39,445 nucleotides of DNA from Saccoglossus kowalevskii (lineage: Eukaryota > Hemichordata > Enteropneusta > Harrimaniidae), in assembly GCF_000003605.2 (NCBI RefSeq), contig NW_003151769.1, positions 38,150-77,594 on the forward strand, in the 5' to 3' direction. The notes under the pieces were generated by a model. The model did not search any database. It was given only the letters and a program-made list of their open reading frames with translations, and was not told the origin of the DNA. This document shows, piece after piece, positions 22,323-35,749 of the stretch. The first letter of the stretch is position 1. Every line of letters begins with the position of its first letter. The translations under genes were made by a program, and so were the position numbers.

Positions 22323-22513
22323 CGGCAATGGCCGACTGGAAGCCAGCATTGTAATCTATGGCAACCTCGTTTGTTTCATAAGATGACCGAGAGTCCTGGT
22401 AAACTCCAGCCTTATTTGGCCCACCAGCAAGAGCCCCGTACAGTATCTGTGGGTTGGGTTCACTACTACCAAAATAATTCCATCGACATGACGTGGGCAT
22501 GTCTGGACAGGAA
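22323..22513 (-). CDS. GH9 gene exon 12: catalytic acid motif
   Basis: 191 nt, between acceptor tttttttcag and donor GTAAGA, entering after two codon bases and leaving in phase 1. It encodes the end of the GH9 fold: [14 protein letters not shown], then [20 protein letters not shown] and [18 protein letters not shown]. The Glu of NEVA is the family's catalytic acid, and the following Asp-Tyr-Asn-Ala-Gly is conserved. Confidence 0.93.
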
Positions 22514-34500: not shown

Positions 34501-35749
34501 ACGGCCATATTGTAAATATAGAAATGTACACACATAAACTTTGTTTTCGATTTTTTTGGGGGAAATTGTTCACTGTACGTACAAATAGAAAGTTTCGACA
34601 CGAAGGATTTCAAACTAAACAGATTATGCACAATCAATGAATGCAAAAAAAACCCAAATCATGATAAATGTTTTTGTCGATATATTATATATATACAGGA
34701 AGTTCCCAACGTCATTTTGACACCCAATAGTCACAGACGTTTGTATAAATCACAAAATGCTGTCTCAAATATGGTATGGGGTCAATTTACATAAATTATT
34801 ATTATTAAATTGCATTTTATTAAATTATTATTATTAAACTATTTAAAAAAAAAGATCACACAACTGTTGAAAGCATACACACAAAACGTACATGTACATT
34901 TCAATATATTTTAGTTCTGTATTGAAACACGCGTGGCCCATAGCCTCCTCGTAAAGTTAACCCATCTTTCCGTTGTAATTTATTTGTCCATTATGCTGCG
35001 ATAAAATGTCAGTTTGACAGATATTAGTGCCAAGTTTTATTTATAAACGCAAACTACATTTTACCACGTAGTCCTAGCTATAGCCGTATGACTATTCATC
35101 ATGATATGTGTTTGCATGGTGCTTCATAAATTTAACCAAAATCGGAATCGTTCATTTAACCGAAAATTAACAGATACATATTACATGCGGATTATTTTGT
35201 TGATCATTTATTAAATAATCCATGCAATTAGGCAGTCATTTTAAGTGCGAACATGATGGATTAAAGCTTAAGAAACGGGGTTTAATTTCTAAAACAAGAA
35301 AATATTTAAATTAGTGATCAATTTGGCACAAATGGCATTAAGCGCCTATTTTGAATTTGTTACTGGTATTATTCAATAACTCCAACACTACTAAAAAAAA
35401 CACGATTCAGAATCATGCTATGTTGCAGTGAAAACATCTTCATTATATCCTATTGTGACAGGCAGTTGCTTTCACGGTTAACACCTCATTCAGGATTTCT
35501 GGAAAAGCAATGGGAAATTCTCGCGAGAGCTACTCCTTTCGACCGCGTGAAGAACATGGACACATACAGCTCGAGTTATTAAAGCAATATGGCCTATTCA
35601 TTGCCGTACTTACGAGCTACAAAGGTTTGTAAAATTAGGGACTATTCGGTTCACCTTCAGCCAATAACAAACACGTGTTTTACCTTACCATATTTTTTAC
35701 CAGACGCATACAAACGAGAATAACAACTCCCTACCTCATGAGCCATCAT
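22323..35749 (-). CDS. Membrane-anchored GH9 cellulase with mucin-like stalk (whole gene)
   Basis: Twelve exons join in frame on the minus strand, apart from one break in exon 9, to give about 980 residues. Predicted order: cytosolic N-terminus (about 1-33, ending EKKR), one membrane segment (about 38-66), a Thr/Ser/Pro-rich stalk of about 480 residues, and a GH9 endoglucanase domain of about 430 residues. GH9 enzymes cleave beta-1,4-glucan with inversion. The base motif DAGD, the VHHR signature and the acid Glu in [12 protein letters not shown] are all present, so the enzyme is probably active. Positive charges before the membrane segment predict a type II orientation with the enzyme outside the cell. 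Animal GH9 proteins are usually secreted, so the anchor and stalk are unusual. Exon phases (0,1,1,1,1,0,1,2,0,1,2) match at every junction. The 5' exon and 3' end are the least certain parts. The alternative, that the stalk and TM exons belong to another gene, is unlikely because all junctions are phase-compatible. Confidence 0.85.
23453..23618 (-). CDS. GH9 gene exon 11: histidine signature
   Basis: 166 nt, with acceptor taccttgtag and donor GTAAGT. It encodes [16 protein letters not shown], then [18 protein letters not shown] and [12 protein letters not shown]. The [17 protein letters not shown] stretch is the classical GH9 signature 1, with the substrate-binding His. Confidence 0.95.
24205..24352 (-). 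CDS. GH9 gene exon 10
   Basis: 148 nt, with acceptor gtgtaatttacag and donor GTAAGT. It encodes [19 protein letters not shown], then [16 protein letters not shown] and [12 protein letters not shown], the usual GH9 run before the ANTAF/TMAFLAL helix. It joins in phase 0 to exon 9 across the intron that holds the assembly gap. Confidence 0.93.
24403..24415. mobile_element. Left end of a TTAA-flanked element cut by the assembly gap (copy E)
   Basis: TTAAAGGGCGGTG matches the first bases of copy C (TTAAAGGGCAGTAG) and then the sequence is lost in N. The gap is 258 bases, close to the 252-314 bp size of copies C and D, so the unresolved sequence is probably this repeat. Confidence 0.55.
24416..24673. 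other. Assembly gap (258 N)
   Basis: A run of unknown bases inside intron 9 of the GH9 gene. It ends 17 bases from the splice donor of exon 9. Open frames drawn across it are meaningless. The true length may differ from the number of N. Confidence 0.99.
24691..24852 (-). CDS. GH9 gene exon 9, with an internal frame break
   Basis: 162 nt, with acceptor ttgtgtttcag and donor GTACGC. The first part reads [20 protein letters not shown], then [19 protein letters not shown], in frame with exon 8. The last part reads [11 protein letters not shown], in frame with exon 10 and typical of GH9. The two lie in different frames: the exon is one base short of the required 163. The break is between 24724 and 24742, where there is a run of five T on the plus strand. 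A sequence error beside the gap is the simplest explanation; a true frameshift would abolish the enzyme. Confidence 0.88.
25137..25242 (-). CDS. GH9 gene exon 8
   Basis: 106 nt, with acceptor taatgttatcag and donor GTAAGT. It encodes [19 protein letters not shown], then [15 protein letters not shown]. The DPxYAxxLLxxAxxLYxFA pattern is a conserved GH9 helix. It enters after two codon bases and leaves in phase 2. Confidence 0.93.
25333..25646. mobile_element. TTAA-flanked inverted-repeat element, copy D, in GH9 intron 7
   Basis: A 314-bp element with TTAA at both ends, termini AAAGCGCGGTAGTCGTCGCG and GCGCGACGACCACCTCACTT, and the same core start as copy C. It carries an internal stretch of about 60 bp absent from C (around 25490-25550, caccggcggtaatcagtgc). 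Its right end is only about 10 bases from the splice donor of exon 7. Confidence 0.75.
25659..25818 (-). CDS. GH9 gene exon 7
   Basis: 160 nt, with acceptor catctatcttgcag and donor GTAACG. It encodes [19 protein letters not shown], then [19 protein letters not shown] and [16 protein letters not shown]. The HxYWGRPEDM and [16 protein letters not shown] stretches are diagnostic of GH9. Confidence 0.95.
25969..26156 (-). CDS. GH9 gene exon 6: catalytic base region
   Basis: 188 nt, with acceptor tcattttttctag and donor GTGATT. It encodes [18 protein letters not shown], then [17 protein letters not shown] and [18 protein letters not shown]. With the Asp ending exon 5 it completes the DAGD motif of GH9, which holds the catalytic base. 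Intron 5 cuts the Ala codon of that motif. Confidence 0.95.
26511..26684 (-). CDS. GH9 gene exon 5: start of the catalytic domain
   Basis: 174 nt, with acceptor gtgtttttacag and donor GTGAGA. It encodes [20 protein letters not shown], then [18 protein letters not shown] and [10 protein letters not shown]. This is the canonical N-terminus of a GH9 domain. It joins in phase 1 directly to the mucin-like exon 4. Confidence 0.95.
26925..26943 (+). repeat. Run of 19 A
   Basis: A homopolymer of 19 A in intron 4 of the GH9 gene. It could be the tail of a retroposed sequence or a simple-sequence expansion; no element boundary is recognised. Confidence 0.8.
28522..29730 (-). CDS. GH9 gene exon 4: mucin-like stalk
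   Basis: 1209 nt, with acceptor aaatttaatttcag. The donor is GTTAGT at 28521, or possibly GTACAA at 28527; both are phase 1. It encodes about 403 residues, mostly Thr, Ser, Pro and Ile/Val, without cysteine: a typical O-glycosylated extended linker. There are two divergent copies of a unit of about 150 residues, each starting HRTFAA and ending near YPETSP, with TTTSH and AQTTIS inside. The first copy contains a 27-residue tandem duplication ([18 protein letters not shown]). Confidence 0.9.
29433..29566 (-). repeat. 81-bp in-frame tandem duplication inside the stalk exon
   Basis: Copies begin at 29433 and 29514 on the plus strand, an 81-base period equal to 27 codons, with about 50 bases of near-identity (gtacggttgccggcatttgc). 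In-frame expansion of this kind changes stalk length between alleles or species in mucin genes. Confidence 0.85.
29847..30077 (-). CDS. GH9 gene exon 3: first part of the stalk
   Basis: 231 nt, with acceptor gttttgtcttgtag and donor GTAAGG. It encodes [20 protein letters not shown], then a Thr-rich stretch ([18 protein letters not shown] and [12 protein letters not shown]). It links the membrane segment to the main stalk. Phase 1 on both sides makes it a symmetrical exon that could be gained or skipped without frame loss. Confidence 0.88.
30347..30907. mobile_element. 561-bp TTAA-flanked inverted-repeat element in GH9 intron 2
   Basis: The left end TTAAGGTAGAAGCCTGGTC and right end GAGTAGGCTTCTATCTTAA are imperfect reverse complements over about 23 bases (three mismatches), with TTAA at each boundary. 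Inner inverted blocks (aaaacccagaatt near 30590, aattctgggtttt near 30867) add to the fold. It has no coding capacity. It differs in sequence from copies A-E but shares the TTAA boundary, so a second MITE family is inferred. Confidence 0.6.
32021..32210 (-). CDS. GH9 gene exon 2: membrane anchor
   Basis: 190 nt, with acceptor atcttcttctag and donor GTTCGT (non-optimal). It encodes an acidic cytosolic stretch ([19 protein letters not shown]), then EKKRYMCGG and a hydrophobic segment of about 29 residues ([18 protein letters not shown], then [13 protein letters not shown]). The basic EKKR before the segment and the lack of a cleavage site predict a type II signal anchor. Cys residues at the cytosolic edge could be palmitoylated. 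It enters in phase 0 and leaves in phase 1, matching exon 3. Confidence 0.85.
33005..33400 (+). repeat. Degenerate tandem repeat with octamer (ATGCAAAT) motifs
   Basis: Roughly three units of about 95-120 bp share phrases such as ggttctttagatatcagggg / ggttcttgtgatatcgtgg and accaagtatcat / actaagtttcat. ATGCAAAT, the POU/Oct octamer, occurs at 33120-33127, 33221-33228 and 33241-33248; the last two sit in a 20-bp direct repeat. It is probably a dispersed noncoding repeat family. Confidence 0.6.
35519..35528. promoter_or_regulatory. TCTCGCGAGA promoter palindrome
   Basis: This exact 10-base palindrome is a known core promoter element of animal CpG-rich promoters, bound by BANP. It lies about 210 bases inside intron 1 from the proposed first coding exon of the GH9 gene, in a locally CpG-rich stretch (35.5-35.95 kb). 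It could mark the GH9 promoter or a divergent one. Confidence 0.45.
35735..35749 (-). CDS. Proposed GH9 gene exon 1 coding part (MMAHE)
   Basis: On the minus strand TAG AGA precedes ATG ATG GCT CAT GAG, followed at once by a donor GTAGGG. The five codons end in phase 0, exactly what exon 2 needs, and an in-frame stop lies two codons upstream of the start. The surrounding 35.75-35.95 kb is CpG-containing and could be 5' untranslated and promoter sequence. A different first exon cannot be excluded. Confidence 0.45.

Follow-up and report, generated by a model that had tools for sequence, protein, structure and literature searches.

Animal enzymes of glycoside hydrolase family 9 (GH9) have been described as serving the digestion of food cellulose (PMC10334666), and metazoan GH9 as monophyletic (PMC6011409). 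In annelids GH9 enzymes with signal peptides are reported, and microvillar enzymes are stated to use transmembrane (TM) anchors (PMC11083476). Plant GH9 classes are defined by the presence of a TM segment or a signal peptide, and the same source reports a Saccoglossus protein with four GH9 domains (PMC5977491); hemichordates are said to hold predicted plant-cell-wall-degrading enzymes (PMC12198962). In tunicates, the predicted cellulase Gh6 combines a TM domain with a catalytic domain outside the cell, but it belongs to family GH6 and is of bacterial origin, and the passages describing it mention no stalk (PMC10986139). Here we analyze a gene on the minus strand (35749-22323) of a 39,445-nt stretch of the genome of the acorn worm Saccoglossus kowalevskii (the window, G000:C4186:38150-77594; the assembly searched comprises 572 Mb in 4830 contigs). 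A preliminary description, made from the sequence of the window, had seen in this gene a GH9 cellulase anchored in the membrane on a long mucin-like stalk, and had suggested that such a combination may be undescribed for animals. The latter suggestion stands in part. No TM-anchored, mucin-stalked or EGF-linked animal GH9 was recognized among the top-listed open-access full-text results, with the reservation that automatic protein annotations may well exist, while the TM-anchored tunicate enzyme provides a precedent from another family.

We consider it likely that the gene encodes an ordinary animal-type GH9 that an N-terminal type II signal anchor keeps at the cell surface, with an extended stalk of about 480 residues in between, and that it belongs to a group of anchored paralogs with differing spacers. 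When exons are derived anew from the letters of the window, twelve exons with the outer limits given in the preliminary description can be drawn on the minus strand (Table 1). Exons E2 to E8 form one frame, with phases 0-1, 1-1, 1-1, 1-1, 1-0, 0-1 and 1-2, AG acceptors and GT donors; E10, E11 and E12 share a single frame as well. The order of the encoded parts, that is, hydrophobic segment, Thr/Ser/Pro-rich region and GH9 domain, is shown by the sequence.

Table 1. Exons of the anchored GH9 gene and the adjoining assembly gap (window coordinates)
Feature	Position	Strand	Remarks
E1, candidate first coding exon (MMAHE)	35735..35749	-	phase-0 donor GTAGGG; weak, five codons
E2, charged cytosolic tail and predicted type II membrane segment	32021..32210	-	phase 0 in, 1 out
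E3, Thr/Ser/Pro-rich stalk, first part	29847..30077	-	phase 1-1
E4, Thr/Ser/Pro-rich stalk, main part	28522..29730	-	phase 1-1; two 81-bp repeats at 29408-29569
E5, GH9 domain start (... GGWYD)	26511..26684	-	
E6, GH9, DAGDH catalytic motif completed here	25969..26156	-	
E7, GH9	25659..25818	-	
E8, GH9	25137..25242	-	
E9, GH9, one-base frame conflict between NPRH and FSWN	24691..24852	-	both parts align with 3wc3
Assembly gap, 258 N, within intron 9	24416..24673	.	
E10, GH9 (... WGSLRYT)	24205..24352	-	GT donor at 24204
E11, GH9, HHR motif	23453..23618	-	
E12, GH9, NEV proton-donor Glu and DYNAGF	22323..22513	-	ends in phase 1

The joined protein, read across a frame conflict in E9, matches the Pfam family PF00759 over profile positions 1-443 of 444 (471.3 bits, 5.6e-141), and five exons of the window are among the matches of an exon-wise genome search with this profile. 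The best matches in PDB include 3wc3 and 1ks8, earthworm and termite GH9, respectively. The alignment with 3wc3 (482 bits, 233 of 422 aligned residues identical) retains the motifs DAGD, HHR and NEV, in line with the claim that all catalytic motifs are present. The HHR motif has a role in GH9 catalysis. Catalytic roles of DAGD and NEV in GH9 are described in PMC11083476. The domain is thus predicted to be an animal-type GH9 endo-beta-1,4-glucanase, sharing the GH9 domain and its catalytic motifs with the secreted animal enzymes 3wc3 and 1ks8. The difference lies in what precedes the domain: a signal peptide in the secreted enzymes, a predicted type II anchor followed by a 480-residue stalk in the gene studied here.

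Exon E2 encodes a charged tail and then a long hydrophobic run, whose best 19-residue Kyte-Doolittle mean is 2.8. Judged by hydropathy and charge, this exon encodes a predicted type II signal anchor, as had been proposed for 32021-32210. The stalk of roughly 480 residues is present as well: E3 and E4 together encode 480 residues, of which 32% are T, 12% S and 9% P (53% for the three). At 429 codons, the stop-to-stop frame of the stalk is longer than any frame in 500 dinucleotide-shuffled versions of this stretch, where the longest has 218, and the unit of the 81-bp repeat present in two copies in E4 is divisible by three. The gene resembles transmembrane mucins in having a long Ser/Thr/Pro-rich region beside a TM segment. 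Transmembrane mucins are usually type I proteins with a SEA domain, whereas here the segment is predicted to be type II and the protein ends in the enzyme. A Pfam scan of the joined protein with E up to 1 yields GH9 only, and hence neither SEA nor a similar mucin domain.

The preliminary description had named one finding that would speak against it, a separate signal-peptide exon just upstream of 26684. We searched the intron before the GH9 domain (28521-26685) for Met-plus-hydrophobic frames with a phase-1 donor of strict pattern. Two weak Met-plus-hydrophobic frames are present, neither of them with such a donor, and a signal-peptide start for the GH9 domain was rejected, an anchor exon being found upstream instead. 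The related possibility that two genes have been mis-joined, the anchor and stalk exons forming a separate small membrane mucin and the GH9 gene starting from an undetected exon, is in our opinion improbable. When the donor of E4 is not used, its frame runs straight into a stop, and hence a short product consisting of the TM segment and the stalk is possible; besides, introns 1, 2 and 4 are 1.8 to 3.5 kb long and leave room for further exons. On the other hand, the phases of E2, E3, E4 and E5 agree, the intron before E5 lacks a signal-peptide frame with a fitting donor, and the paralog L012 has a TM segment and then a GH9 domain with identical phases. Given the anchor exons of paralogs (L012 and L014-L017) and the grouping in the tree, both considered below, the anchor is probably no mis-join.

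The exon-level search with PF00759 yielded 146 matches on 19 contigs of the genome; 31 of these, distributed over 17 contigs, start at profile position 1. Hence, the genome contains many GH9 genes, and the family is strongly expanded in it. We read the DNA upstream (1.4-8.5 kb each) of 24 paralogous loci (L012-L030, L034, L035 and L039-L041) and assigned them to classes by eye from heuristic scans. An anchor exon is seen in five, EGF-like domains and no anchor exon in three, a good signal-peptide candidate in eight (L021, L022, L023, L025, L029, L034, L035 and L040), and a weak candidate or none in the remaining eight (L020, L024, L026, L027, L028, L030, L039 and L041). The first exon of one more locus, L031, was not found by tblastn.

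In L012 the anchor exon (NGNIDDEKDDKDKKKGGFIQFLKTNWKLVAIIVGIAAAIFILSIIIAVVVATSG) lies approximately 1 kb before the first GH9 exon and, as E2, has phase 0 in and phase 1 out. Nothing mucin-like is seen between this anchor exon and the GH9 domain. Upstream of L012 (L032 1716-2426) there is a 237-residue open frame consisting mostly of an acidic repeat of the GSELEDHGL type. At L037 (G000:C3460:272261-272392, plus strand) an L012-type TM exon survives as a decayed copy interrupted by a frame break.

The loci L013-L019, all on the minus strand of G000:C3460, carry a spacer of another kind. In all seven of them an EGF-like domain and the start of the GH9 domain are in one open frame, and therefore the fusion needs no splice guess. 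The EGF exon of L016, the one run through Pfam, matches FXa_inhibition (2e-11) and EGF_CA (4e-8). Further EGF-like matches are observed upstream in each of the seven loci, the one in L019 being weak (E 0.36). Upstream of the EGF-like exons, L014, L015, L016 and L017 have a Met-led hydrophobic anchor exon with a phase-1 donor. These genes are similar to the window gene in having a spacer before GH9, and four of them in having the anchor exon, but the spacer consists of EGF-like repeats and is not mucin-like. Ser/Thr/Pro-rich frames in the 17 other scanned loci (those apart from L013-L019) are short only, 47 aa in L022 and 57 aa in L023. EGF-linked cellulases are perhaps as unusual as the mucin-stalked one. 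Judging from the exons read in these loci, the spacer between the anchor and the GH9 domain looks exchangeable, with none in L012, a mucin-like one in the window gene, and an EGF-like one in L014-L017.

For the tree, 21 rows were projected from tblastn onto the protein of the window gene (WIN), and L018 and L027, with less than 150 filled columns, were dropped, leaving 19 rows; a second tree was built from 18 rows, with the long branch of L026 removed. Of the 18 other paralogs, L012 is the nearest to WIN by path, the two being 60% identical over 382 columns. The sisterhood of WIN and L012 is absent from the best tree and is not rejected (p-AU 0.282). In the 19-row tree, WIN, L012, the EGF genes and the long-branched L026 group together (86/87). 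In the 18-row tree the six rows with TM exons, together with L013 and L019, form one side of a branch (78/83), and none of 500 label shuffles is as clustered. The anchored group lies apart from the paralogs with signal-peptide candidates. These data provide moderate support for a putative single origin of the anchored group.

Several observations weigh against the proposed reading, and they concern the group, the anchor and the gene model. In the 19-row tree L026, one of the eight loci with a weak signal-peptide candidate or none, falls inside the group of WIN, L012 and the EGF genes. If in the same tree only WIN, L012, L016 and L017 are labeled as TM, with EGF treated separately, the label requires four changes and is not clustered, 500 of 500 shuffles being as low. 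In L013, L018 and L019 the upstream scans revealed no anchor exon that was convincing; two of these loci, L013 and L019, were counted as anchored by EGF alone. Moreover, candidates from the hydropathy scan in other loci (e.g., L028 and L034) were set aside by eye, and not blind. As for the anchor itself, the charges around the hydrophobic segment of E2 are not one-sided: the 15 residues preceding the uncharged run contain five Lys/Arg, and the 15 that follow it contain three. A genome search with the TM exon yielded two matches, both of them the gene's own exons, and the TM exon of L012 differs in sequence; since the exon matches only itself, homology of E2 and the anchor exon of L012 rests on position, phase and character.

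In the gene model, E9 contains a one-base frame conflict, and E9 and E10 do not join in the present assembly. E1 is weak, being one of many possible ATG exons, and the start at E1 is not established. At the other end, E12 ends in phase 1 and must be followed by a last exon below 22323; neither the 3' ends of 15 paralogs nor a motif pointed to a convincing candidate in the window, and a plausible last exon is present in paralog L029. Should the conflict in E9 be real, the protein would be cut short in the catalytic domain and the gene would be a pseudogene or a dying copy, which we regard as rather unlikely. The one-base conflict is there in this assembly, and the L037 remnant indicates that decay occurs in the family; but the other exons are open, their splice sites are plausible, the catalytic motifs are kept, and E9 adjoins an assembly gap. 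Both parts of E9 resemble GH9 and align with 3wc3 without interruption, and the exon stops 17 bases short of the 258-base gap; we therefore regard an error in the assembly as more probable than a broken gene. In sum, the preliminary gene model proves largely right. The claim of twelve exons with agreeing phases holds for the number of exons and for the joining of E2-E8, and fails once, at E9, which does not join E10. The central observation remains, the reservations being this frame conflict and the two ends of the gene, neither of which is established.

The preliminary description also drew a parallel with KORRIGAN, the plant GH9 acting in cellulose synthesis. KORRIGAN has a type II anchor and then the GH9 domain, and is not known to have a long mucin stalk. 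Plant class A GH9 enzymes have a TM segment (PMC5977491). The window gene shares this arrangement, a type II TM anchor before GH9 being predicted from hydropathy and charge. By analogy, the anchored enzyme could trim glucan made by a synthase in the membrane of its own cell. The order of parts speaks for such a role, but an exon-by-exon genome search for the cellulose synthase family PF03552 yielded no matches, while of 14 control genomes 3 were positive in the same search; neither Saccoglossus nor Ptychodera has a CesA entry in a table of PMC6523144. This makes a KORRIGAN-type role in synthesis very improbable; it was rejected as there is no PF03552 match, and the parallel in function is not supported. 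The locus differs from the plant enzymes in its mucin-like stalk too, and its nearest solved structures are those of animal GH9.

An animal-type GH9 on a stalked anchor could work as follows. The signal anchor would leave the enzyme outside the cell, and the stalk, probably O-glycosylated and thus stiff and long, would hold the GH9 domain away from the membrane. If each residue adds 0.2 to 0.25 nm, the stalk of 480 residues could span about 100 nm, compared to some 10 nm for a few EGF repeats, while the enzyme of L012 would stay at the membrane. The spacer would then set the reach of the enzyme into the glycocalyx or mucus, the same activity being placed at different depths. The simplest and most likely use would be contact digestion, at the surface or in mucus, of beta-glucan from algae, plants or microbes on a mucus-coated epithelium. 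Its main rival is shedding, in which a protease cuts the stalk and the GH9 domain with a part of the stalk is held in secreted mucus, e.g., feeding mucus. Shedding agrees with the gene model and differs in the site of work; the explanations considered here and the anchored reading are not mutually exclusive. Long exposed Ser/Thr/Pro stalks are commonly shedding regions of surface proteins, and the same genome has paralogs with signal-peptide candidates, whereas paralogs with an EGF-like spacer or with none would have to be released in some other way. We consider shedding unlikely, though less so than a mis-join or a decaying gene.

Returning to display at the cell surface, the spacers come after an anchor exon with a phase-1 end, which is what exon shuffling would lead one to expect. 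A tentative scenario, which we find possible but somewhat doubtful, is that in this deuterostome lineage GH9 underwent a single change from a secreted to a surface-bound enzyme, and that interchangeable spacers (none, EGF-like repeats or mucin) fitted by exon shuffling then placed the enzymes at graded heights in the glycocalyx or feeding mucus. The result would be a surface cellulase brush made of animal parts, loosely similar to bacterial surface-tethered cellulases.

Other features of the window and the genome were observed in passing. At 10702-12741 on the plus strand of the window there is an open frame of 679 aa with leucine-rich repeats (LRR), an Ig domain and a C-terminal hydrophobic segment, resembling LRR-Ig membrane proteins. 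The region 17134-17907 is a G-rich minisatellite (one row comprises 24 copies of 26 bp), and the long minus-strand frames there are probably spurious. In the mitochondrial contig G000:C4830 (17,037 bp; L011 and L033), ND1 and COX2 share a strand and COX1 lies on the opposite one, and ND6 seems to follow CYTB; the gene order of this contig, with genes named by eye, is largely vertebrate-like. Codons of this contig suggest ATA=Ile, AAA=Lys and AGA=Ser, and AGG is absent from the five genes counted. The assignments are based on ATA at an invariant Ile of COX1, and on AAA and AGA at conserved Lys and Ser positions of ND1, respectively. Together with the gene order, they make up the combination typical of acorn worms (Hemichordata) and point to that group.

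Animal GH9 are generally treated as soluble digestive enzymes, and an anchored group with three kinds of spacers would show that an animal lineage also makes cellulases for display at the surface. The interest is less in the single gene than in the anchored GH9 group with exchangeable spacers, which offers a test case of exon shuffling that alters where an enzyme sits and how far it reaches while its catalytic domain stays the same. A concrete hypothesis also emerges on how algal and plant glucan might be digested in a mucus-feeding deuterostome: the acorn worm may display cellulases on cell surfaces, and not only secrete them.

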